Assembly (NCBI GenBank): GCA_020055645.1
Contig: CM034546.1
Location: 99,572,001 to 99,636,000, forward strand
DNA length: 64,000 nucleotides
From: Tomocerus qinae
Lineage: Eukaryota; Arthropoda; Collembola; Entomobryomorpha; Tomoceridae
Reading direction: 5' to 3'
Part shown: positions 4,018 to 56,900 of the stretch, one piece after another
How positions within the stretch are numbered: position 1 is the first letter of the stretch
Layout of the letters: each line of letters opens with the position of its first letter
The notes under the pieces: generated by a model
Told to the model about the DNA's origin: nothing
Seen by the model: the letters and a program-made list of their open reading frames with translations, nothing else
Databases searched by the model: none
Program-made: the position numbers and the translations under genes

Positions 4018-4556
4018 ATGTCTTTAACAACTCTATGGTAAGTCCTTTTATTTTGTATAATAATACCATTCTCATGAAAGAGTGTATCGGTAGGTACAAA
4101 CACTGTATGTACGCAAGGAGTAATGGATTTTAAAGGTTACAAAGAATCGGCGAAATATAATTTTCCTTCTTATCCTATGACAAATAATAAATTGGGACAA
4201 TTGCAAAAATGTGTTTTCTATATTTCAGTGTAATCGGCAACCCTCCTCACACAAATTGGATCGTGGAAATCAATGGTTTGCTTTATTCACAGAAATCGGC
4301 ATTTAAGGCGAAGTTTACAGAGTTTATGGAAGCAGAGGGCGGATTACACATCTCTCTGTTACACACTCCATCCCCTTTACAAAATTCAGCTGATACGAAA
4401 AGACCTCCTATGCCACAAATCACACAATACCTTAAAACACTTGCAGAAATGGGATACAAAGTCGTGTCTTCCAGTTCTCTTGCTACTGCCAATATTTCAG
4501 GCGGAAGTACGGGACATAATTTTACTTACATCTGGACACTTTCGTCTCAATGAATA
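4018..4556 (+). CDS. Small uncharacterised protein, copy 1 of a three-gene tandem family
   Basis: Two exons: 4018-4037 (ATG, six codons plus two bases, donor GTAAGT) and 4229-4556 after acceptor TATTTCAG. The joined protein is about 114 aa, starting MSLTTLC. It shares with copies 2 (9456-9889) and 3 (14371-14817) the same phase-2 intron after a tiny first exon, a similar length and a common C-terminal pattern: a hydrophobic helix, G-(Y/F)-(K/R)-(V/I), then a Ser/Gly-rich stretch ending in WTL. Copy 1 has lost most Cys. There is no signal peptide or membrane segment. An AATAAA-like signal lies about 80 bp downstream. I do not recognise the family; the end of the protein faintly resembles GTP cyclohydrolase feedback regulatory protein (GFRP), which I treat only as a lead. 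Confidence 0.7.
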
Positions 4557-9455: not shown

Positions 9456-9889
9456 CATGACTGTCTGCACTTTGATGTAGGTCGACTGATTTCTATTCCA
9501 AATTTTACTACATTTAGAAATTGGGAATTTATTTAATTGTATTTATTTGTAGGTTGACATATGAAGTGTACGAAGGGAGTCTGGGGACTTACGGACCTTT
9601 GCCACTTTTGTCATGGACTATTTACATTAGTGGACTGAGTGTAGAGCAGCAGCGATGTATTCGCAAGTTTTTCCCAGAGCTACAAGAAAGCGGAGGGGGA
9701 CTGACAATTTCGAAAAGTGATAAGCAGGGCACGGGCATTCTTAATTTAGTTAGTACAATGAGCACTGCAACAATGTTCCTTGGATGGTTAGATAGTGAAG
9801 GATTCCGTATTGCCGGAGCTACTGTCGACAGCTCTGTCTATAGCGGTGGAGTAACCAAAAACTGCGTATGGACATTACAGGCTCCGTAA
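9456..9889 (+). CDS. Small uncharacterised protein, copy 2 of the three-gene family
   Basis: Exon 1 is 9456-9475 (ATG, six codons plus two bases, donor GTAGGT), exactly the length of exon 1 in copy 1. Exon 2 is 9553-9889 after acceptor TTTGTAG. The protein is about 118 aa, starting MTVCTLM. The central ISGLS motif matches ISINGLS in copy 3 and EINGL in copy 1. The C-terminal helix, GFRI and VWTL ending match both relatives. Copies 2 and 3 are closest to each other (shared Y/D-x-E near the exon 2 start, TVD/SVD-S-x-SG near the end). Probably cytosolic: no signal peptide. Function unknown. Confidence 0.75.
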
Positions 9890-14370: not shown

Positions 14371-14817
14371 ATGTCGACCCAGTCGGTCGTCCTTCTACAG
14401 TAAGAAATTGTATTTTTTTTATTTATTGTTGATTTTGCTGTTTTTGTAAGATATTTTTGAATATGATTTTCATATAGATTGAGCTACGATTACGAAGAAC
14501 GTCTTCTAGGAACGATTCCTTGTCTTCCTCTTATTTCGTCAAATATTTCTATCAATGGTCTCAGTTTGGAGATGAGGGAAGCGATGAAAGCCAAATTTTC
14601 TAAGCAGCTGAAGCACGAAGTTCGTGAAGAGTGCTTGTCCTGCATACAAGGTGACAACGGAAATCAAATTCTCAACGTAAACGAAACTCTTAAAACAGCA
14701 ACGAAATTTTTAACTTTCTTAGCTGTCATCGGATATAAAATTTCCTGCTGTAGTGTCGACAACTCCGCATTCAGTGGCTATGCCACGAAAACCTATCTTT
14801 GGACATTACAAAAGTGA
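14371..14817 (+). CDS. Small uncharacterised protein, copy 3 of the three-gene family
   Basis: Exon 1 is 14371-14399 (ATG, nine codons plus two bases, donor GTAAGA); exon 2 is 14478-14817 after acceptor TTCATATAG. The intron is phase 2, as in copies 1 and 2, which argues for descent from one two-exon ancestor. The protein is about 122 aa, starting MSTQSVVLLQ. It keeps the family core ISINGLS and the C-terminal pattern IGYKI followed by a Ser-rich turn and LWTL. It has several Cys (an ECLSC pair mid-protein, a CC pair near the end) absent from copy 1. Function unknown; weak GFRP-like C-terminal shape as noted for copy 1. Confidence 0.75.
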
Positions 14818-17082: not shown

Positions 17083-20000
17083 CTATTCAGCGATATTAAC
17101 TGCGATCCAGTCAAGATGAGAAGTGATCCTCGTGTAAACAGAAGGAACTCCAGGAAGAGCACATCCTTTCAATGCTCCAAAACTAGTCAGTCCTATCAGT
17201 CGCCACTTATCTTCTTCGAAAGTCACTAATGGACCTCCACTATCACCCTGCAAAGACATAGTTTCTCATTTACATACGAATTTTAATTACAATGACATTT
17301 TATACAAAACAAAATTGGTAGTATTTACATTGCAAGGGCCCGTATCTCCTCCATACACGCAGACATTACTATTTTCTATGAGACTCGCACCACCTTCTGC
17401 TAGAGCATTCCAGGCAGATCGACATACATCGTTACTGATCACTTTTACAGATGCTTGACGTAAAACTGGAGATATTACAGAATCTTCCGTTCGACCCCAT
17501 CCCGTGGTAATACTGTCTCGTTCATCATAATCCTCCTCTGAATGATTAAGATAATTTTAAATTGAATTTATAAAACGATGAAATCGATGTTCACTTTATA
17601 TTTATGTGAATGGGAAAACTTACCAGGATCTTTTTGATTGGGAAGACAAACCGGTCGTACATTTTTGCCAAGTCGCAATTTTCCAGCAAGCTTAATCAAA
17701 GCAATATCACTATGAGTTTGTTCATACTGTGCGTTAGGTATTATTCTTGAAACTCTAACGACTACGTTTTTGGTCTCTTTAGAAGATCTTAGATCATGAT
17801 CTCCTACATCAACAGTCATCAGGGACACAAGAGGCAACCGAAGATTTCTGAAAACCATTGGAAGAACAAATAAAACCTGAATAAGACAAACTACGACTTT
17901 CTCAGGAAAATACAATTGTCACAATTTGAAATCGAACTTACAAATTAACACAGTGCCCAGCAGTGACTATGTACCTGTTTGAATTGTAATAAATTTAATA
18001 TTGTACTTAATTGTAATTTTATAAAGATGTATTAATGTACTAAAAAAATTTATTTCATACTCTTCATTAATTATTGAACCACCACAAATGGGTCTCCCGT
18101 TAATCATTAGCAATACTTGCCATGGCCATTCGTTCACACCAGTCTCATTACCCCGATAAATTCTAACCTGTTCCTCTTGGTCAATTGCTGATTCCAGAAT
18201 TCTGGTGGGAACTGAAAAAACAAAGATGATTTTTTCATCAAGATGTCAAAATATGTACAGTATTCAAAAAAACTTACGGGAGGATTTTAATGAGATCTCC
18301 GAAAAAGTTTTTCTCCTTGAAGATTTCAAAAGTCTTCGCATAGGAACAATTTTTTCCATTTCAGGTGATAGTACTCCAATTGGCCTATGAGAATTCTTCA
18401 CTCCACAGATATCGCTGTTATAGTCTATTCCAATTAAATGCAAAATCATTCAAAATGTCATCAAAGAATCACATTCAGAAAAATGCAGTGTAACTTACCT
18501 TGAAGAGATGAGATCTTTTTGCACTCGATTTGCCTGACCCGTATATTCCACAAATAAGCAGAACTTTGGGCTGTGACAACGATTCGAACAGGTTGGTCTG
18601 ATGCAGTACGAACGGTATCTAGGAAAAATAAACAAGAAAAATAACGCTGTGCAATAACGTAACTTGGAAAGTTTCAAATTGTTTTCACCGACGTTTTTAT
18701 GTATAGACTTACATTGGTATCCTTGAAGCAGACCACATTGCGGGGCTGTTGGGCCATCGGCACTGTTAACAATTTGGACCGAGTCTACGGAGCAACTCTC
18801 CCCACTTCTACCCGCAAGTAGAGCTTCCAAAAATTCAACCCTGCAATAATGTTATGTTCACTCAAAATATTCTCACTAGTTCAAGGAGTTAAACTGATTT
18901 GGTTAAAAGTAATGCTTCCCTAAAGTAAGTCTTAGCTAAAGTGGTTTTGAAGATGTTACAAATTAAATCTACAGCTAATGTCAACTTGCCTCACATTCTT
19001 AATCAGTTAATCCTCAAATAAAGATTAGTTACACTTAACAGCCTTCATAAGCGACAGAAAATTTTAAGATATAAACTAGAACCATAAAAGTCCAACCGTC
19101 AATTTTTAAAATATTATTCCTGGAATAAATACCTTAGACCACAATATCCTTCTGCCGGTTCGACGACATATTGGTAGACTTTTTGTACAGTATCCAAACT
19201 AGGATACGAAGGATTTGAGAAATAACTGTCGACTTCTGTAGTTGTTATGCTGCAATTTTCATCAATTTGGACAACATCGGCCGGAGGCCCTATTATAGCT
19301 GCAGGAGGCAATAAGGGTGGAGGAGGAGCCTCCTCCTGTGAGCATGGGGCAACTGTCGTTGGAACATTTGCTACCTGTGGAGGCCAAGCAGGAAATGCCG
19401 GCGCCGTCGGGAAAGTATAGTTGGGCATGGATGGAGCCGTGAAGTTGGGGGCAGGAGGCATAGTAGGGGCAGAGATGTTAGGCATCGTATAGTTAGGGTT
19501 CGGAGGCATTGTAGGAGCGGTATAGTTAGGGGCAGTAGGCATTGTAGGGGCTGCAGGCATTGTGAAGTTAGGCATTGTATAATTAGGGTTCGGAGGCATT
19601 GTAGGAGCTGTAAAGTTAGGCATAGTATAATTAGGGGCGGGAGGCAACGCCGGAGCGGTAAAATTAGGGTTTGGAGGTAAAGTAGGAGCGGTGAAGTTAG
19701 GGTTTGGAGGCATAGTCGGAGCGGTGTAGTTAGGGGCAGTAGGCATCGTAGGAGCTGCAGGCATTGTGAAGTTTGGCATAGTATAATTGGGGTTAGGGGG
19801 CATTGTGGGGGCAGTGTAATTGGGGGCACTAGGCATCGTTGGAGCTGGAGGCATAGTGGGGGCCGTGTAGTTAGGGGCAGTGGGCATTGTTGGGGCTGCA
19901 GGCATTGCAGGTGTGGTGAAGTTAGGTGCAGAAGGCATCGTAGGGGCTGGAGGCATTGTAGGAGTGGTGTAGTTAGGTGCAGAAGGCATCGTAGGGGCTG

Positions 20001-21415
20001 GAGGCATTGTAGGAGTGGTGTAGTTGGGTGCAGACGGCATCGTAGGGGCTGGAGGCATGGTAGGAGCGGTGTAGTTAGGGGTTGGAGGCAAAGTAGGGGC
20101 TGGTGGCATAGTTGGTACAGATGGTGCTGGAGGCAAAGTAGGGGCTGGAGGAAGTGTAGGTCCTTGTGTTGTAGGCTCATCCAAAACTGCCCCAGCAATC
20201 GGAGATGGTGACAATGTTGCCGTAGCAGGGTCTAAAAATTAAAACCCATCTGATTATATCTTGGGATATATACTCCAAATATATTTATTTAGCCTGGTTT
20301 GTCTTACTTAGTCCAATGCAGCACACTCCCCGATACCTGCCCGAAACGTAGCAGTATCCATAAAATTCTCCTCCTTGAACTTCACAAGAATCTTGTGAAT
20401 CCACACAGATGCCTTGCTTAGAGTCTGAGTTACAGGGATGCAAAATTGTTGTACTTAGAGTAATGTGCCCATGACCATGCCCATGTCCATGACCGTGCCC
20501 ATGACCCCGTCCTAAATTATCATTGACGGACATGACAATTTATGCGTAGTTCATCAGTCATTTTTTTTACGTAAATGAATTTAATATTACCTCGGATACT
20601 ACTGAGATACTGAGACGTTAGATCTGCAGAGGATGAAGATCCAGATGAAGATGAAGAACCAGCAGAGGATGAGTAACTTAAACCAGATGAAGCTCCTAGA
20701 GAGGATGAAGATGCTAAATCAGCTGAAGCTCCCAAAATAGATGAAGATTCTGAAGCAGCAGAAGATCCTGAGCCAGATGAATATCCTAGAGAGGATGAAT
20801 ACCCTGAAGAGGATGAAGACTGCTCAGAGGAGGATGAAGACTTAGAGGAGCTCGAAGATCCTGAACTCTGTCCAGAGACAAAATATCCTCGGTTTCCAAT
20901 GCCCCAACGATCTAAATGAAAATATTGAATGATTCATATAATCTATTAGAGGAGACAAATCAAGACCTTATTTGACAAGATCTATTTTACTTCGTGCAGT
21001 ATCCTCAGAGGGAGAAGATCCTGCACTACCAAGAATAGAAACACCCTCTGCAGATATTACAGGATAGCTTCCACCTCCATCATGCTCATGCCCCACTTTT
21101 ACTAGAAAAAGAAATGTTTCAAATAGGCAGAGATATACCAATAATTTATAAGTGTAATATGCTCACTTCTCGTTGTGCTAATTCCATCACTATTGTATGA
21201 TGACAAAGGGTCGCTACTTAATAGGTCACTCACAGTCTCACTTTCAGAAGAATAAGTACTGCAATAAACCCAAGAAAAGAAATTATTTACTGTTATAATG
21301 TGGTAAAATAAGAAAATAGTCCAGATTTTCTCATTCAGTTATTTTTATAATGTATTTCGACTACTTGCCTAGCAAATAATAAAGCTGAAAAAACTACTCT
21401 GGTAAAGAGATGCAT
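17083..21415 (-). CDS. Mosaic CUB / trypsin-fold serine protease, 14 exons, about 1016 aa
   Basis: Exons (5'->3'): 21415-21369, 21258-21167, 21101-20991, 20911-20591, 20511-20308, 20231-19133, 18840-18713, 18618-18499, 18424-18278, 18211-18061, 17974-17942, 17847-17624, 17537-17329, 17247-17083. Phases agree at every junction. Order: signal peptide (1-15); Ser-rich 84-190; His-Gly repeat about 191-205; six-Cys module about 215-255 ending GVCC; Pro/Asn/Thr repeat about 275-560; CUB about 600-707; protease from I774 after an R773 activation cleavage. Catalytic triad: H814 (TAGHC), D865 (SDIALI), S965 (GDSGGPL). The residue at chymotrypsin position 189 is Gly, so a non-trypsin specificity is likely. 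A secreted, zymogen-activated extracellular protease; the role (digestion, immunity or matrix) is not shown by sequence. Intron 1 uses a GC donor. Confidence 0.9.
19370..20130 (-). repeat. Coding tandem repeat encoding a Pro-rich, N-glycosylation-sequon linker
   Basis: Within exon 6 of the protease, imperfect units of [17 protein letters not shown] type recur. They vary as short (PNYTMP, PNFTAP) and long forms and encode about twenty N-x-T/S sequons (NYT, NFT, NIS). Confidence 0.9.
21259..21368 (-). other. GC-AG intron 1 of the serine protease
   Basis: The junction reads AG|GCAAGT at the donor, the strong consensus for GC donors, and TTGCAG at the acceptor. Splicing here joins a 15-codon signal-peptide exon to exon 2 in frame; no GT donor nearby does so. 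Confidence 0.75.
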
Positions 21416-28694: not shown

Positions 28695-31600
28695 TTAAAA
28701 TGTTAATTTCAGCTGCCAATCTTCTTTAATGAGGACTCCAGGTTTTCTTATCACAAGAGGAGTCTGTCCTTCGGATTCTAAATTGACGCTCCCAACAGCT
28801 AAAATTTAATAAAAAAAGCATCACATAAATGAAATGAAATACACTTTTTACAATAAACAATGCCAATTTACTTAAATCACGATAAAATTGCACATTATCG
28901 GTACAAGTGGGGATACACACTTACATTTACTAGACACTTTAATGCTGCTGGGTTTGCTTTGCAAGCCTAAGATTACAACTCGTTCCACCCATTCGGGAGT
29001 TTCATATGTGCTTTCAGGATTCACAACCCTACAAGGAAGAATGATATTTATTTTTGCGTTTGCAATGAATACATTTTCATGAAATGAATATAGTTGGTGT
29101 ATTCCTTACTTTGCTTCTAACTGGTTATTTGAGTATGTGAATTCTATTTTCAAATACTTTCCATTTTTGTAGTCGTATGACTCTCCATCATCAGTGTAAA
29201 GTGTGCCACTTGCGTTTCCCTGAAATAAATCATAATATGCTTACTGATTAATACATATGGAAAAATTAACTATGCCATTATGAAGGGATAAAATCCACCT
29301 ACATTTTCGTCAACGGCCACGAACAGAGTGTAAGGATCTCTTTTCATCAATGCTGACGATCTACGGATTCTCTGTTTAGTAGGAATTATTGAGCCACCTC
29401 GTTGATATACGGGAATCTAAAAAATAAAAGACATTTGATTAAACTTTTATGCATTTTGGCAATAATGCTCCGAGCTAGACGCTTGAACGATATTTACTTC
29501 TACAAAGAAGATTTGTATGTTTGTACTTGGGAAAAATGTTAGAATCAAACTATAATAATAAATTTTACCAAGATTTAAAAACTTACAGTATCATCGTTGA
29601 CATTTATAGTATGAGTTCCAGCAGTGTATTTTCCATATGAATAGAAATCATACCACACTCCTTTAGGTAAGTATACTTCTACACTTGATGCTCCTTTATC
29701 TGTCACAGGGTGTACTAGAAGTGCGTCGCCTATTTAAACATTCATTCCAATCATATTACAATATTATATGGTTTTATTTGCGTTTGGACTTCAGTCAAGA
29801 AAATTCGCATAATGTTGTAGTTACAGGAATTACTAATTCCAAATAATAAATGGTAGCAAAACCAAATGGACGTACCCACAAGATGCTGGTCTTGCATATT
29901 AAATGTTTTAACATCATCAGGATAATTAGCCCACAATGGTCTCATAGGAGGCATTCCGGTTTCCTCATTTTCCTTGAATAAAGTATACCAGTATGGAAGT
30001 AAGGCATATCGTTTCCGAACCGCAGATCGGATTAAAGATGTGATTTGATCTCCAAACACCCATGGTTCCCGTCTTTTTGTTTCAATATGTGCATGATTTC
30101 TTACAAACGGTTGAAAAACGGCAGCCTTTAAATTAAGAAGGTTATTATAAATCAATTTCTATTTAGTGCCAGTTCATAGAAGTTGAAAACACATTTCAAT
30201 AATACTAACCTGGTACCAACGTAAAATAAGCTCAGCTTCAGGATTGTTGAAGAATCCTCCAATATCAGCTCCACATTGTGTGATTCCAGAAACACTAAGA
30301 GTTAAGCACATAGGAATTGATATTTTCAAGTGGTTCCAGTCGGCAGTGTTATCGCCAGTCCAAACAGCGGCATATCTATAAATATCCAATATGCACATGT
30401 AGCAATATCTGTATATCAAGTTATAACATGAATAGATTTGGAAGGAACATTAATTCAGTTGACTTACTTCTGAGTTCCTATGAAGAATGCGCGAGTCAAA
30501 ATGAATGGCCTTAGTGTACTATCAGAACGCATTAGTTGACCTTCAAAAGTTGACTTCACCTGCAGCAAAATATATTGACACAATCAAATAAAATCTTCAA
30601 AATGATACAAATTATATTAAAGAGAGCTATACAACGGACCTGCAACAATCCATACATATTGTGGACATCTCGATGTTCCCAATCCCCATAATGTTTCATA
30701 TCCTTTGGCATTGTAACTTCAGGTCCATTGAACACGGATGGTTCGTTCATATCATTCCAAGTGTACAGATCAAGAGTGGATGGATATTTGTCCAGTGCAA
30801 ATTGATTCCTCCAATATTCCCTGACTCTCGGATCGAAAAAGTCCAAATATGATGAGGAACCAGGCCAGCACCATCCTATTAGTCACCGTAGAAAATTATT
30901 AAGTACATACTACAAGTAAGTATTATTCTAATTCAAAGGTCACCTTCATAAACTTTCCCATGTTTATCTTTCACATAAAGGTCATTAGCTAAAGCGTCAT
31001 CATGAACAAAATATCCAGATTCTCTTTTAATATGAGGGTCGATGATAGTCACCATTTTACGACCTTTGGAGCTAATATTTTGGATCATCTCCACTGGATG
31101 AGGGAACTTGTGAGAATCCCAAGTAAAGTATCTATAATTTAGAATAGTAAATATTACAAATAAAGGTCCATAAGGTTTCAAGATTTATAATCCTATAAAA
31201 TAAGTTTTTACTTTTTGCCATCCGTATGTTCAATATCAAGCCAAAGAGAATCATAAGGAATATCATGTTTATCAAAGCCGTCATCAATTGATCGTACATC
31301 TTCTTCGTCATTATAATTCCATCTGCATTGATGAGATGAAATAGCCCAAGTCTAAAGAGTTAATTTAAAATGTTAGCACAAACATCGGAAGTCAGATACA
31401 ATATTTACTGGAGTTAGACTAGTTAGTTATATCTTGCCTGAGGGAGAGGAGTGTTTCCCGTCAATTTACCATACTGCCGGAACACATCAATAGGAGTTGG
31501 TCCCAGCAAAACAAATATATCAATGATTCCTGATTCACTCATCCATCTAGTTTTTCCTTCTTTATCGGATTCAGTACCTAAATGACGAAAGCAAAAATAT

Positions 31601-35219: not shown

Positions 35220-37712
35220 ATGAGTACTACTGCTGCTACCAATCCAGAACAAAAGTCTATTGAGAAAGCCCTCCAGAAGGAGAACAAAGCATTAAGGGTA
35301 CGTTTCAGTTTAGTAATGTAATGTAAACTCATTCTACTGCAACTTCATTTGTTTTAATAATTATTATGAAGAGAATTTATACATTCATTTTGACTTTTAT
35401 GAATGTTAATATAGGCTGAAATTAAGCAGCTGGAGATTAAAGTCAAAACTTTCCAAGGGGATTTAAATAAGTCTACAGCTTTGAAGGATCGACTTGAAGG
35501 GCTATGCAGGGAGTTACAGAAGCAAAATAGATTTATAAAGGTAAATCGCATAATAGTTACTTAAGTTATCCATCACACGCGCACTTATAATGTTCTCCAC
35601 GTACAACTAAAACATAGTCAATTTACGTATTTTTAAAATCAACAAATGTTTTCAGGCTGAAAGTTCTGCAAAAATCGCAGAAGCAAATGCTAAAGGAAAG
35701 GAGTTGGCTCAGGAAGTTCAAAATAATATGGGATTTATGAAAAATATCAACCAAAACTTGGCTTCTATTACATCGGAAAGTTTAGAGGTAATTGAGGATT
35801 ATATATGACTACTATTATTATTACTATTATATTACATTGAAGTCTTAGGATTGAATATTCCCTTAACTAATGAAGTAAAAACTAAATTATCGATACATAA
35901 AATTCAGGTGAAACGTGAAAATGAAGATTTGGCCAAGAAAATTGCAACTCTTAAGGATCACTATGAAGAGCGAGAAAAGGTAAGAAGAGAAAAACTAATA
36001 TTGTAGTATTTAAATTGTATTGCATACCAATAAGAAATTGTATGGGGAAAATGCGTTTTATTATATGGGAACTTGAATATAGGCATAGGGTTTGATCGCA
36101 TATATACAAAGGTGATCTGCTTAGATGAATTTTGATATTTTATTTTTATATTTTTAACCCAGATATTACAAACTGCTTTGAGTGAGACAAATGCTCTTTT
36201 ACTGATCACCAAGCAAGAACTAGGAGAATTCAAACTCAAAAATGCAGAGGAGAAGGAAAAGCTTTACGGAGAAATGCAACAATTGGCAAATGCTTTGGTG
36301 AAAAGCCGAGAGCAAATGAAAGAAGCAAAGGAAACTGAAATTACTCTGCGTAATCTCATTCAGAATTATGATGACAAGTTTAACGGTTTGCAGAGAGCTC
36401 TGAAGGACACTAATGGGGCTTATGATGAATTTAAATCAGAAATGTCTAAAGTATTCATAGAATTCACTTTTTTATGACTTTTTTTATTCATTTATAAAAG
36501 TAGTGGCTTAATTTTTATAATATTTGTCAGGTTACCGGTAGAACAAAGGATCTTGAAAAGGAAACATCAAAGTGGCAATCAAGATGGGAGGAAAGCAACA
36601 CTGCTCTGTGTCTGATGGAAAAAAATCATCAGCGACTGCAGGGAGAACTTGTTAAAGCTCAAGAAAGCCTCGCAAAAATGACAAACTTGTGTAGAGCTTT
36701 GCAAGTGGAGAGAAAAGAGTTGCTTAGCGAATTAAAGGTGGAGGAAGAAAAAAAAGGAATTAAAACTAAACCAGATGAAGCTGAGCTTCAACTTAACGAA
36801 AGAGCTAAACTTGTCGAAGATGTAGGTAATGAATCCCAACTTCCATCGACAGACAAAGTGGAGGTAACCCAAGATGAGGAAAAACCCGTGAAAGATTCGC
36901 CAGCAACGGGTCCCACGGCTGCTGCCAGTAGTGATGACAAATCTGTGGATATCGTTAGTGATTTACAAGAAGGGACAAATAAACCTGTTAGTAATAACGT
37001 TGAAGACAAAGGAAAGGAAACATCTCAAGACGAATCCTCTGATAATGTAAATGCAAAATCATCAAACAAAGGAAAAAATAAGTCTGCGCCAACATCACCC
37101 TCAAAAACAAAGAACAAAAAAACTCAGAACAAAAATCAATCTCAACCGTGTTCACCGTCGAAAAAGGAATCACCTCAAAAATCCGAGGGTAAACAAACTG
37201 CAGAAAACGTAGCTACACCACCCAATTCCGAAAAACAATCTCCTATTGCAGAAAGTGTACCCCAAACAGATGGACCTGAAGTAAAACCTGAAGAGAAAGT
37301 AGTTTCGCAAGTAGTAGATCTCGTTTCAATAGAAGAAAAAGCAGATACTCCATCGATTGAACAAATTTCTAATGATGACTCCAAATTAGTAAATAAAACT
37401 ATTGATAACCAAACTGAAACACCAGCTTCCCCCAAAAAGGATTCTGAAGAGGCTAAAACATCCGAGAACCTACCTGCATCCCAGAGTGACCCTGGAAAGA
37501 TTAATACGCCTGAAATCGAACCTGTACCCAAGGATAACCCTGAGACGTCTAATCCTGAAAATGTAGTCAAGTCGAACGACAATACTCCAGTTTCTCCCAA
37601 GCCACCTACTAATAATGCTCCGAAGGCCAACAAAAAGGGTCAAGGCAATAAACCGAACTCAGGGGAGGAAACGCTTCCTAAGTCGAACAAAAAGTCTAAA
37701 AAACATAAATAG
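35220..37712 (+). CDS. Taxilin family coiled-coil protein, six exons, 625 aa
   Basis: Exons 35220-35297, 35415-35540, 35656-35787, 35908-35979, 36163-36450 and 36531-37712, all introns phase 0. Residues about 15-310 form a long coiled coil with the taxilin signature LEGLCRELQKQN, followed by the typical F..TL-like and LCRALQ.ER helices. Residues about 320-625 are a low-complexity Lys/Ser/Pro/Glu tail with repeated SP sites and a basic C-terminus (NKKSKKHK), encoded in one long exon and much longer than the tail of most taxilins. Taxilins bind free syntaxins and nascent chains and act in vesicle traffic (family knowledge). Cytosolic; no signal or membrane segment. The coiled-coil part is confident, the function of the tail unknown. 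Confidence 0.92.
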
Positions 37713-41306: not shown

Positions 41307-44300
41307 ATGAGTGCCAACACCATTCTACTGGATTTTTCCGTCGATCCCTCCCAAGTAACAGGAAATGGTAAGTCTTTTATTCGATCACTCTATCTTAAAT
41401 CAATTCTCTCCTAAAATACATTTATAATGCTCATTACTGTGTTACAGTTTTATATAAATAGCAAGGTGTACCTGTAACATTAAAGCATAGTTTTATACAC
41501 TGTAGATATTTCCACTTTCCAGCACTACAAAACAAGCTGAGCATTTTTATTATCTAAACACACTGCTAGTAATTCTTGAATGCAGTCCAACCCGCTTTAA
41601 ATGCATTTAGACGAATGAAAGCAACTACAGCTTGCAGTTCTATTTTCAGAAAGTTTGCACTTCTTCTTAGCTGTACTTTTTTATTTTTCAAATGAGCTGC
41701 AGTTGCCAGCTAGTATAATCCCTAGACAAATAATGGCAACAAATGGTCTAATGGGAATTGAGATCATCACAATCTAATATATTATCTTAACATTTATGAC
41801 TTGTGCATAACGAAAGCTCACTCGATCCATGATTGCATATCAACATTTTATAATTTTTCAACAAACCCAATGTTCTCTTTTTGGAGCAGAATGAATTTTA
41901 AATGCATTACCCTAGCCTGCATTTTACAGTACAATGTCTCATAATAGGCAACTGCCTTAGTAATTTAGATAACTACATATTTCAATTATTATTTTTTTCA
42001 TAAATAACTAAAGATCTTTGGGTGAGATATGCAAAAGCTGACGAAACAGCAGAGGAGTCTAGTGTCATTCTAATTGATAGGCTCATTCACAGTCTTGCTT
42101 ATGTTCATAGAAAATAAATTGATAGCAGCCGTATCCGCACCCGCACCTTGTCAACGTGGCCTTGTAAATGCATGCAACTTCAAGTTTGTATAAGAAAAAA
42201 AGTATTTGCTAAATACGACATCAAAGATTATAAAAGAAGTGGCTGGCCATCATAACTGATAAGATAAGAAACATAGTTAGAGCCATTCATTCGGAATATA
42301 ATGCGACAGTTTTTTATGAATCTAACCAATCTCATGCATAATTAAATGTATCACCATCACACTGATCATTCATATGCTTATCAACTTGTCACTTACACCG
42401 TGAAGCAATTATCTTCACTTCTGAAAACTATTAATAAATCACTGCTTTAAGGTTCATTAATCGTATTTGTAAAACCAAGATAAGTTTTTGTAATTTGTAC
42501 ATGATGATTTGTATAGTAGATGAATTTATGAATTCCCCATTTTTCAATTACCAGGAGGAGAGGAAATTGAATCGGAAATTATTTCTGCTTTGGAGTCTCA
42601 TTTTGGAGCAGGATCGCTGGATAAAGTGACCAAAAAGGAAATTCTAGCGGAAGGGATTCAAGCAGGAACGGTTTCGATTTACATGGGGATCAGAGGGAGT
42701 ATCGTAAACATTCGAACTTATCTTAATGGTCTTGTGACCATTAACATTGACTATTATTTATCGGAGGGAGAGAAGCCTTTGCTCACTATAGAGGTATGAA
42801 CGTCTGCATTTCTAACACTTTATTCTTTACAAGTAAATATCTTGTAAATTATTTTTCTTTTCTACTCATCACAATCATAAGTAGTTACCTAATCCTTTAG
42901 CTTTAATAACTTGATGAACTACGGAATGGTAAACACAACGCATACTCATACAATTATACACAGTTGTGGCAATGGGATCCTTCTTGTGAGGATTCTGTCT
43001 GTCTAAATTTTTCAGGAGGGTGGATACAAAGGTATAAGTACTATAAAGATCAATAGTTTATGGGTTGATAAAAGGAACTGTAGCTTTTAGGGTTGGCTAC
43101 GTTGTTTGAAGGTATGGAGCGGTATTCCCATTTGATTGTTATAATGATGTACAAATGTAGCTATCATGTTGCCACAGAATATGAAAGAGTTGGAGGTGCA
43201 TTTCGGTGGGAAGAAGAAAGTGCAACGTGTGAAAACTTTCCCCGCTCTAAGAAGAGGGGCTAAAATAGATGTCTATATGACCACGACAGGTAGGTCATTT
43301 CCCAAGTACTCCCCACTTAATGACTTTTTAACGAATTACGCTTTACATTTTTACTTACAAAAAAGAATGATTCATTACTGTATCAATTTATTTTACTTTC
43401 CCCTTATATATGCCCTTATACATTTATTTCGTCATTCTCTATTTGATACATAGAAGTGCTGCACTTTATCAATTCCATTAAGTTGCTTGTCTTAAACACA
43501 AAGCATTTTAGAACAGTAATCCTTGAGTTTAATAGAATACTTCGACGAAATTACTTTATTCACTTGTAATTACCATTTAGTACTAGACATTTCTATAGCT
43601 AAATAGTGTATTGTACAAGAGACTCCTATAATTTCCCATCTAACATACTACAGTACGAGTAAATCAACTAATTCAACACAAACTCCGACAATACCTCAGT
43701 AGAACAGGAATTGATATTTGCTAGTTTGATCGTATTATTCCATCAAAAAAATACAAATAGAGATGCTTCCTTGTAGTATACTATTTGATGAACTGAAGTT
43801 TTTTGATACAAAAAGAAGAATATCTCCACTTTAATAATGAAATGATGTGTATTGAAATATGTTTAATTTTTGTCTGTATAAATGACTGGAGGAAAAGGTT
43901 ATAATTTACTTAGAATTCAATGTTTGAAATAATATGCTCGTTTCATTGGTCGAACCTATTCAGAATTCTAGATAGAATTAGTTAGTGGGTACAAGATTAT
44001 ATTTTGTTAAGTAATAATAAATATATCTGCCATACGTCTATGGTATTTAACTACTTTAACATTAGGAAATTAAAGCTTGAACGAAATCATAAAGTTATTT
44101 CATTCATGGTTTTGGAAAATGGATTCTGTTCTGTTGCAACCTTGCAGGTAAGGGTACTTACGCGTTAGTACAACATAAACTAAAAACATAGTAATAATAG
44201 TAGTTAATACAATAATTTTGACATGCATTATAATATATATGCAGATTTGCTAATGTTGATAAGATTGGATAGGTAATCATGTCTCAATTTTCATAGCATT

Positions 44301-46372
44301 ATTTTGACAAAATCGCACACTAATGTTCAATGCGGAGAACTATTTTGTGAAAGTGAACCAGGAATATGAATAATATTACTAAACAAATAAATACTGTACT
44401 GTATAATATTGTGTTTGAATTTAAACATTTTGGTGACCACGACTTGATTTGATTCACTATGTTCTTCAGTAAACTGTAGATATTTTTAAATGTAGGTTTT
44501 AGTCTATAGGCATTTAATTTGCGTTCACGTATGATTAACTAATAATTATAATCTTATTAACTTGTACTTGTACAATGTACTGTACATGAACCTTATTAAA
44601 ACTTTGTATTTGTATGTACCTGAATTTTGACTATTTTTTATCCGATTTTTACAATAGGAATGTAGAGTGCTAGAGGGGGCATGGGGTGAAAAACGGAACA
44701 AAATCAAAGCTGTGAAAACCCTTCCTGCCATTCGCAGGGGAATTCCCTTCGATACTTACTTCCTCTCCTCAGGTTGCATGCTCATTTTATTCAATTATTA
44801 CAGACATTATTATCTTTAAGTTGCTTTTGTCCATAACTTTCAAAAACTAGCCTGGCAGCAGAAAACTGGTGCTTTTCCACTACCGTCAATGTCTATCTAT
44901 AAATAGTACATATCAAAATTTAGTTAATACTATACACAATACTTTTACTATATAAGTAGTTATATATATACGCTTAGCTTTCATTTTTGTAAGCCAGCAT
45001 CAGCAATAGGAAACTACATATTAGTCGCAAGCTTTTTAAAAAGCTTTTCATGCAAAACCTAAAATCTATAAACATTGAGCAATGCATGCCAAAAGTTTGC
45101 CCAAGTGCTTGTTTAGCTTTTGCTGTGATAACGTATTTATTTATTTCATTTGCACTTTATCTCGTCTTAGTTTACGTTATTTGTGTACGTATGTGAGTCA
45201 TGTTTTTGTGGTGACTGTTGCATAGATATTTAAGAAAGGTAATTGCTCCATTTTACAGCAGTGCTAAATGCTAATTTAATCTCAATTTTTGGTGCAGACG
45301 AACGTCTTCTCGAGTACGATATTGACAAAATCATCTATGATGAACGATCTCCTTTCCAGCATATTCAGATCGTCCACTCACTGAATTTCGGTAACATGCT
45401 TGTTCTGGATGATCTCCAAAGTAAGCAGTGCAGTTTAAAAAACTAAAAAAAATTTATTTTGACAATTTAGGCGATTGTCTAAAAGTGTATTTTTAAATAG
45501 ATTTGGCCGAAGGAGATCTCATTTACACGGAATCAATAATGTGTCGTGGAAAAGAGGATTACACGGACAAAGATATACTAATTTTAGGAGGGGGTGACGG
45601 AGCACTTTTATACGAGCTCCGCAAAGAAAATGCTAAAAGTATAACTATGATTGAGGTGATCCATTATCCATTAAACCGTTAAATTAAATTCATTAATTGT
45701 CTTTTGATGAACAGAGCAGTATAATGTTGGCAAATATTCTATATTTTGTTAGATTGATGATATGGTAATGCAAGCATGCAGAGTTCATTTAAGATCGGTT
45801 TGTGGTGACACATTGGACAACTATAAAACTGAAAATTATGAGGTAATTAACTACAAAGTTTGATTTACGATGTATGCATTTATCTTCTTGCAGAAGGTTT
45901 TCTATTTGAATTGGCGAAACTGATGAAAGAATGAAATTTTTCTTTCTTAGATAGTTGTTGGTGACTGTGTCGAATATATGTTGGAGTGTGAAAGGCAAGG
46001 GAAGACTTTTGATTACGTCTTTGCTGATTTGACGGATATCCCTATTTCTCCTACTCCACAAGTAATAATATTAATGACCATTTATTTTGAATTGTTCATG
46101 CATTTTAGTTAACCTGATTTTTTCCCCTGTCACAGGGAGAATTATGGGATTTCATCAAGTTAATCCTAAATCTATCGTTTGCTGTCCTAAAGTCCGATGG
46201 AAAATATATGACCCACGGTAATGGATCCTCGTCTCCTACTGCACTGAAAATGTTTGAAGATGTGCTTGATCAATTGGCGATTAAAGTAAACTTCACCAAA
46301 ACACATGCCTTTATTCCATCATTCATGGAAGATTGGGTTTTCTATCAAATACAACGAAAGCAAATTACCTAG
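41307..46372 (+). CDS. Sms: Spermine synthase, eight exons per transcript, 375-376 aa
   Basis: Exons: 41307-41367, 42555-42793, then either 43178-43289 (A) or 44658-44772 (B), then 45298-45420, 45501-45655, 45753-45842, 45951-46061, 46136-46372. The N-terminal domain resembling AdoMet decarboxylase fold (residues about 20-100) and the aminopropyltransferase core mark spermine rather than spermidine synthase; the length fits human SMS (366 aa). Core motifs: [30 protein letters not shown] (decarboxylated-SAM binding) and the catalytic Asp in [10 protein letters not shown] (about residue 286). The enzyme moves an aminopropyl group from decarboxylated SAM to spermidine, in the cytosol, probably as a dimer through its N-terminal domain (family knowledge). 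A long first intron and the duplicated exon 3 are unusual; see the separate entries. Confidence 0.93.
43178..43289 (+). other. Alternative exon 3A of spermine synthase
   Basis: 112 nt, acceptor TTGCCACAG, donor GTAGGT; begins in phase 0 and ends with one leftover base. It encodes the link between N-terminal and catalytic domains, with [19 protein letters not shown] aligned to the human segment ending VRGGAIDRYWPTA. Confidence 0.85.
44658..44772 (+). other. Alternative exon 3B of spermine synthase
   Basis: 115 nt, acceptor TTACAATAG, donor GTTGCA (weaker than in A); same entry and exit phase as A. It encodes [19 protein letters not shown] at the aligned position, clearly homologous to A but diverged, especially in its first half. 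Confidence 0.85.
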
Positions 46373-53990: not shown

Positions 53991-56900
53991 CTAGAGCCTA
54001 GAGCCGAACGGAGATACACCAGCATCGTCAGCATCTGACTGAACCATTTTCATATGGCTAGATTTACAAGGAGGATGTTGATGCTGTATATGTGCAAGAA
54101 GTATTTTTCGCTTGCTTTTCCAATACTAAATAAACAAATTGAAATTCATTTGTATGCTAAATAAGTTACACGAAATAGAGTCGAAACAAAAAACTTGGGA
54201 TACCATTTTCGTAGTCATAAAACAGTTCTTCTCCAGAGTCGATATTTCTCTTTGCGTAGATTCCAATTCTATGATCTCCGTTAACAAGCATTCGTTTGGC
54301 AAAGCAATTAGGAGTTTTAGAAGAGTTTGCGAATCTCGTTTTATTCCCTTTCCGGGTAGCGTCAATAACGAAATGATCGTTCAATTCAAATAAAAATGTA
54401 TGCTGGACTTTATCGTAAACCAAGCCACGACGGTCTGCCTCTTCTTGCGACACGAGCTCACCTCTGTACTCGGAAATGAAATCATTTTTTTGGACCTCAT
54501 ATTTTAAGAAAATTCCCCAGCCAGAAACATCTGATGGTCCCCACAAAAGATGCTTATCTAATTAATAAAATGAGCAATTAAATATATTAAATTGAGAATA
54601 TTATTGTGGATGAGATGATAAAAATATGAATTTGTTGTTACCCAATTTTCGCTGAATATTTGCGTTTCTACACGTCATGTTATTGACATCAAATTCATGG
54701 GCGCCGCATCCAAAGCATAAATCAGGGTCGCACTAAAAACAAAAATCCCATAAATTATTCGTCGGAGCATATGATTCTGAAAGCTTCGAAAAAGCGTAAA
54801 GAAATCATACTTCTCTAGATGCAGCGAAACAAATGCAACGTTTTGAATCGCAGGTGCTGGTACAACGACAGCCCGGAAAGCGATTTATGCCTGTAGAGCA
54901 AAATGTGCTGGGTAAGTGCCTAAAGTAAGTAAGTGGTATATACTATATTATTGAGGCAGGTAAAGGTTAGCTTACAATTGAGTGAACAGGTACAAAACTT
55001 TTCGCAAGCGGTTTTATTTTTCCTACATTTGCAATCCATATCGCATTCGCCTCCATCTTCATGTATACATGGAACAAATCGTGCAGGAAGTTCCCCCATT
55101 GAAGACCCTTTATCGAGGTCTGTGGGTAATGGGTGCTTTTCAGCCTTTTTGAAATTATTTATCCAACGCCTGGTACCTCTTCTCTTTGAAGCCGAATTAG
55201 TTTTAGCTTGAACAACACTAGCATATTTTTTGCTTCGCTTACGAACTTTCTCAAGAACTGTTCCAGCCTTATCATTTTCTCGGGTACTATCTTCAGTTTT
55301 TGCGAATTCAAATACCTATGAAGTACATTGTAAAATTGACCCCAAATTAGATACATTAAGAGTAATTTTTTGCCTCTAAGTGAAGTAAAACGTGACTCAC
55401 TTCTCTGCAGTTTTTGGTAACAATAATATCCGCAATAGCACAATAATTTTTCTGAAAAGGCTCCTTCAAAGAGCGAAACAAAGATCGCTCTGAAGGACTC
55501 CAATCCTTTCGGATCTCTTGGCAAGGTTTGTTCGATACAAAGATCAGTTCCTTTTTCCTCCAACAATTTGCAGTTTGGCATTCTCCAAATACTTGCTCAA
55601 GAGCAGCGGGCGTCTTTTTCAGATATTTAGAATCTACATGATCTTCCTCAGCTAAAAAGATAATTTGATCAGATCAATCCGTTCAATAAATACCAGAAAT
55701 ATAGTTTTTGTAATCACCATGTTGTTGGCAGTCATATTTATAGCAACGTCGGCAGAAAAGCGAATGGTAAGAACAAAGACTCGATTCCCTAGGTAAGGAC
55801 TTGGAAAGCACCCCATCAATATTTGGAACAGGAATTGGAGATCTGTGGATATTACTCGTAGGAACTTCAGTGGCATTTTTTCGCATTAAGGTTTCATATC
55901 TATACATGATTTGATGGTGAAATTAAAACGGTAACAATGATAATAAAGTATGCATAAGAGTTAAGACAAATAGTGAAATGTCTTTTACTGACCTTTGCTT
56001 TAACTCTATATCAGTTCCAATGCCTTTGAAAGCCTTTGAGATTGCTAAAAATACTAGAGTCGATGGAATTTCATCAGAAATTCCCGTTTTACAAGCGTCA
56101 TCTTTAGTCTGTTTTTCTGGAAGGGGCTTTTTCTTCCGAGGCTTTCGGACAGTGGCAGTAGAAACTGTATTGCTCTCTTCGCTGCTGTCAATGCCGTCTT
56201 TATCTTCAATTTCTTTACTTTGTTTCCTGGTACGTTTTTTACTCACCTCTGATACTCGAGAAACAATAGAGATAAGGTGTTCATCTTGCAATTCGTTTTT
56301 CTTTTCGTGATGTTCTTGGTGAACTTTTCCTTTGTAATGTCCAACGACCTCGTCAAGGAATCTCAAATCTCTTTCAATAACATGGTCACCCAGAAATGGA
56401 ATGTTCGTCAGATATTTCCCATCTTCAACTTGTATATTAAATGGGATTGATGTCCAGTCGAGTACAGGAGGGATAGACGCCAAAGCCGGTATAGTTATGA
56501 TGGGTGTGGAATTCTTTTTGGCAGGCAATTCCATCTTTTCTTCGTCAAAAATTTCTATGCTGGCATGATTGGTACAGAAATTGGACGTGTTACAATACTC
56601 GTATCCCTCCCTTGGACTTTTTTCAGTAATATTTGTTTTCTCCAAAGTCCAAATGGCATCAGAGGGCTTAATATTTTGATTAGTTTCCTCTGAAAATCAA
56701 AACGTGTACACAAATTCAATTAACATATTAATGTTTACAGAATTTAAAAATATTATATACAACAAATAATTACCAACAAGTGCTAGATTATCTTGCCATA
56801 AATTCTTTATCTGTTTCTTTCTGAGATCGCTCTCCTTCTTGCATATTTCGTCGTAGACTTTCCTGGCAGTGCGTATCATGTTTCCCAGTACTTCCTCTTT

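Follow-up and report, generated by a model that had tools for sequence, protein, structure and literature searches.

The window analysed here is a stretch of 64 kb (G000:C1:99572001-99636000) from a genome of 334 Mb in 115 contigs. At 41307-46372 on the plus strand it holds an intact gene that is, by its domain content and its best solved match, a spermine synthase (SMS). Exon 1 (41307..41367, 61 nt) carries the ATG and ends at a GTAAGT donor, exon 2 (42555..42793, 239 nt, donor GTATGA) ends in phase 0, and exons 4 to 7 lie at 45298..45420 (123 nt), 45501..45655 (155 nt), 45753..45842 (90 nt) and 45951..46061 (111 nt), followed by exon 8 with the stop codon (46136..46372). Between exons 2 and 4 there are two versions of exon 3, called 3A (43178..43289, 112 nt) and 3B (44658..44772, 115 nt). 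The spliced product has 375 residues with 3A alone (form A) and 376 residues with 3B alone (form B). After the exchanged segment, exon 4 contributes ERLLEYDID, with a split codon for D.

The catalytic domain of spermine and spermidine synthases (PF01564) was found in form A with an E-value of 2.6e-29 and the small N-terminal domain (PF17284) with 2.4e-14. Both families are present in all three proteins compared, namely forms A and B and an intronless paralogue on contig C3 that is described below. The dimerising N-terminal domain of the SMS type (PF17950, SpmSyn_N) reached E<=0.001 in two of the three; the score of form A, 23.4 bits, is slightly below the curated value of 25. Human SMS (PDB 3c6k) matches form A with 300.3 bits (residues 57-372) and form B with 292.6 bits, so that the alignment spans the N-terminal region from residue 57 of form A. 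At E<=1e-30 it is the sole solved-structure match for both forms, and it is also the top match for the C3 copy.

Several further features are visible in the window. On the plus strand, three spaced open stretches with similar WTLQ or WTLS endings (4191-4553, 9518-9889 and 14467-14817) may represent a tandem family of short proteins; no Pfam match was obtained for the two that were scanned. Two adjacent fragments of family 1 glycosyl hydrolase genes (PF00232; 24411-24755 and 26525-27217, plus strand) align with one and the same portion of the profile and are apparently a tandem pair, and a taxilin-like coiled coil piece lies at 36504-37712 (plus). The minus strand carries a trypsin-like protease piece (17568-17918), an extended open frame of repetitive sequence, with many [15 protein letters not shown] units and tandem repeats of 33-51 bases (19114-20238), a piece of a family 31 glycosyl hydrolase (29751-30158) and, at 54166-55315, a SET domain stretch (PF00856) next to a cysteine-rich stretch that has no Pfam match. 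Taken together, these two stretches are reminiscent of an E(z)-type methyltransferase. The search of the 64 kb against Rfam returned no match.

Homology, age and frame of the exon pair

Exons 3A and 3B had been described as homologous in the first-pass annotation, and reciprocal tblastn searches of the window bear this out. The 3B peptide finds 3A with an E-value of 1.6e-5 and the 3A peptide finds 3B with 2.9e-5. Since the best of the listed matches outside the SMS gene reached only 0.31 (3A peptide) and 0.45 (3B peptide), the homology is beyond chance. The peptides share 16 of 38 aligned residues with one gap, the DNA 57 of 111 aligned bases, and the difference in length is one whole codon. 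An assembly artefact or a recent allele is ruled out by this low identity. The divergence by NG86 is dN 0.63 and dS 1.85. By codon position, identity amounts to 18/37, 24/37 and 15/37, the second position being the best kept. The GC content of 3A and 3B (0.44 and 0.49) stands against 0.28-0.34 in the introns. Among the window matches listed for either peptide no third copy of exon 3 was seen, and among the best candidates scored elsewhere in the genome exon 3 is covered by the C3 copy only. The DNA flanking 3A and 3B gave weak matches (E 0.07 or worse), so a duplication of the neighbouring intron is unsupported. In the 3464 nt of the first four introns, five AG..GT decoys of 97-130 nt (with four start points) are open as well; openness by itself is therefore weak evidence for either exon.

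On recomputation, the coordinates, lengths, phases and GT/AG dinucleotides of both exons proved correct; each is entered in phase 0 and left in phase 1. When both are joined, the junction reads G/GA ATG TAG and translation stops after 139 residues, and when both are skipped the frame shifts, again as proposed before, and the product of 128 residues ends in exon 4. The pair shows hallmarks of mutually exclusive exons in its neighbouring position, homology, equal phases and a frame broken by both or neither exon, save for cryptic sites that keep the frame. It had also been claimed that only 3A or 3B alone gives a full enzyme. This holds for the main splice sites, but three AGs within 3B (+10, +16 and +52) keep the frame after 3A and four GTs within 3A keep it into 3B, which would allow double inclusion if they were used as cryptic sites, so the frame lock is not absolute. 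Judged from the reading frame, mutual exclusion of 3A and 3B is probable.

The splice sites of the two exons differ. The donor of 3A (CAG/GTAGGT) is the best match to U1 among the 260 GTs in the gene (-11.8), and that of 3B (CAG/GTTGCA, -5.6) is similar to the donor of exon 2 (-5.8), two other constitutive donors being weaker (-4.5 and -3.0). The pyrimidine fraction of the acceptor is 0.62 for 3A and 0.69 for 3B, within the range of the other acceptors of the gene (0.44-0.81), with longest runs of at most 2 and of 6 pyrimidines, respectively. Such partly opposite strengths would suit a regulated competition. The introns at the pair measure 384, 1368 and 525 nt, compared with 74-108 nt downstream, and the one separating 3A from 3B (43290..44657, 1368 nt) is too long for steric exclusion. 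Neither a short intron nor a clash of U2 and U12 sites nor docking-selector pairing was found among these introns; devices of this kind are present in some exon pairs and are not required. None of the introns has a U12 branch motif in its final 40 nt, and ungapped helices between the three introns did not exceed those of 300 shuffles (p 0.42-1.00). Duplex energies of whole introns were matched by 95, 19 and 1 of 100 shuffles, a score too crude to be given any weight.

An intronless copy and the case for 3A

The only SMS relative found lies in the same genome; searches of viral and prokaryotic sequence collections gave none. At C3:38333930-38335051 (L002:1189-2313 with the stop codon) there is an intact intronless paralogue of 374 residues, open throughout; 253 of its 374 residues are the same in form B. 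Within exon 3 it shares 24 of 39 residues with 3B and 14 of 38 with 3A. Eleven alignment columns, one of them a gap, are common to B and the C3 copy only, three to A and B only and one to A and the C3 copy only. It follows from this likeness to 3B that mRNA of the B type was probably made formerly, and its copying back into the genome long ago is the simplest reading of this locus. Between the SMS gene and the C3 copy, NG86 returned no dS, as is the case with saturated sites. In a four-sequence tree, a split of A and B before the C3 copy is favoured (RELL 0.75), though not significantly; the alternative with A as sister to B, that is, a later and fast-evolving A, is behind by a delta lnL of 3.3 (p-AU 0.26). 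If the exon duplication did precede the C3 copy, 3A would have been kept for longer than the entire age of that copy. A further, weak genome match at C4:31690050-31690424 (E 2.2e-4) covers residues 167-296 only, contains a stop and falls short of exon 3; it may belong to another aminopropyltransferase.

The same genome contains COX1-like copies with TGA at the position of an expected tryptophan. Their appearance is that of an arthropod, perhaps a springtail. Two of them, at C1:139115301-139116023 and C81:11659-12381, are equal in score and in number of stops, which suggests one insert present twice or an assembly duplicate.

The C3 copy is the sole trace of a past mRNA and it is B-like, which invites the reading that one exon, most likely 3A, is an unused relic and that the gene makes form B only. 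No retrocopy with exon 3A was found in the genome, the 26-base pattern of the exon 2-3A junction had no match there at up to 3 mismatches (a search run without a positive control), and pyrimidine runs are lacking at the acceptor of 3A. Against this, 3A is open and flanked by GT/AG dinucleotides, its donor is the gene's best match to U1, its length differs from that of 3B by exactly one codon, and it retains the RRG...D.Y motif and the residue corresponding to P112 of human SMS. All of this is found at a silent divergence near saturation, and 3A scores nearer to human SMS than 3B does. In a hand alignment with the human protein, 3A shares five residues that 3B and the C3 copy lack, and the latter share two that 3A lacks, so neither exon resembles a decayed version. 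Likewise, the higher score of form A against 3c6k makes 3A unlike a decayed 3B. In neutral simulations with 3000 runs per point, an exon near the observed identity of 57/111 kept its open frame and both splice dinucleotides in 0.6-1.9% of the runs, and at half that divergence in 3.8%. This model is harsh in that it places the whole divergence on one line; indels and protein similarity are left out of it, and including them would reduce the percentages. With dS 1.85 and dN 0.63, and yet an open and spliceable 3A with P112 kept, there are grounds to argue for selection on both exons. The dead duplicate that the first-pass annotation named as its alternative is made less likely by the intact 3A at near-saturated silent sites and by the B-like intronless copy, and we regard the relic as unlikely.

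A mainly regulatory pair appears quite improbable. Here, mRNA with both or neither exon would be unproductive and would lower the output of SMS, for instance according to the polyamine level. The positions of the stops, at the junction after double inclusion and in exon 4 after skipping, with four or more junctions to follow, would fit this; but an exon that merely delivers a stop needs no homologous protein, and 3A stays similar to 3B, to the C3 copy and to human SMS. That the cryptic in-frame AGs of 3B and GTs of 3A join the two exons, or parts of them, into an enzyme with a doubled segment is hardly credible, as a structured segment would be present twice in the product, the pyrimidine tract of 3B is followed first by the AG before 44658, and the internal GTs of 3A score -5.4 to +0.7 against U1, compared with -11.8 for its donor.

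We consider it likely that 3A and 3B are old tandem duplicates serving as alternative exons, one in each working SMS mRNA. Exon 3 would have been duplicated in tandem so long ago that silent sites are now nearly saturated, which created two alternative segments, and each working mRNA would receive either 3A or 3B. The choice would probably be made by competition of splice sites, A with a strong donor and a poor pyrimidine tract, B with a better tract and a weaker donor, together with regulating proteins. Transcripts with both exons or with neither would meet early stops upstream of several junctions and be expected to undergo nonsense-mediated decay. The swap would alter the linker and a strand beside the likely gate for polyamine length. 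Forms A and B would both remain spermine synthases, though probably not with the same stability, pairing or kinetics.

Position in the enzyme and comparable exon pairs

The earlier placement of the swap between the dimerising N-terminal domain and the catalytic core is right: exon 3 closes the former domain and opens onto the catalytic part. Exon 3 corresponds to about residues 91-127 of the human protein, with numbers counted along the rows of 3c6k; as a control, this count puts the letters expected from PMC11203672 at G56, F58, G67, P112, R130 and V132. The exchange P112L lowers the stability and dimerisation of human SMS and is associated with Snyder-Robinson syndrome (PMC11203672). This proline lies within exon 3 and is kept in 3A, 3B and the C3 copy. 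R130 and V132 are described as disease sites in the loop between the domains (PMC11203672), and their positions follow shortly after exon 3. The two versions had further been said to differ in charge. They do, with a net charge of +5 for 3A and +3 for 3B, but the difference is modest and the C3 copy has +5 as well.

Longer amines are shut out of the substrate cavity of human spermidine synthase by Trp28 (PMC12812037). When a stretch of this enzyme was included, Trp28 aligned with the final residue of exon 3 in three of four MAFFT modes; in the fourth it was placed far off, behind a long gap. At this position there is T in form A, S in form B and the C3 copy, and A in human SMS. By this alignment, the residue at the gate position is small in both forms, as is expected of enzymes that accept spermidine. 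The strand ahead of it differs, with YMTT in A and YFLS in B. We tentatively suggest, while holding the opposite to be the safer expectation, that splicing switches the substrate gate of SMS, so that A (YMTTT) and B (YFLSS) would prefer different amines or would yield different amounts of spermine by tissue or stage. If the pair is used as proposed, polyamine synthesis would have a new point of control: splicing would act where the dimerising part of SMS meets the catalytic part, on a segment that contains a human disease site and lies beside a likely gate. Forms A and B would also be a naturally occurring enzyme pair on which the determinants of amine specificity could be tested.

Pyruvate kinase, with PKM1 and PKM2, is a metabolic enzyme in which two homologous exons serve as alternatives, and it is well studied at the level of both RNA and protein. 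The SMS pair is likewise a case of alternative homologous exons in a metabolic enzyme, although a different one, and is drawn from sequence. Within the open-licence papers covered, our search agrees with the statement that no splice switch has been described in SMS; it found no alternative exon of such kind in human SMS, nor a report of mutually exclusive exons in springtails. The exons 3A and 3B are probably mutually exclusive exons of an established type, in a gene for which the search of these papers gave no earlier case.

A close parallel is offered by coq-2, where either exon 6a or exon 6e is used in helminths, annelids and molluscs (PMC7434440). These, too, are homologous neighbouring exons in an enzyme of small-molecule synthesis, and the choice between them alters the enzyme core. 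Unlike the SMS pair, which is known from DNA, the coq-2 exons do not differ in length (both have 134 nt in C. elegans), have been seen in RNA and in several phyla, and set which quinone is made (PMC7434440). On a larger scale, 236 events of tandem duplicated exon substitution were described for human and 154 for Drosophila (PMC9741552); spermine is not mentioned in the main text of that paper. The substitutions reported there resemble the SMS pair in having equal anatomy, in keeping important residues and in being mostly ancient (PMC9741552).
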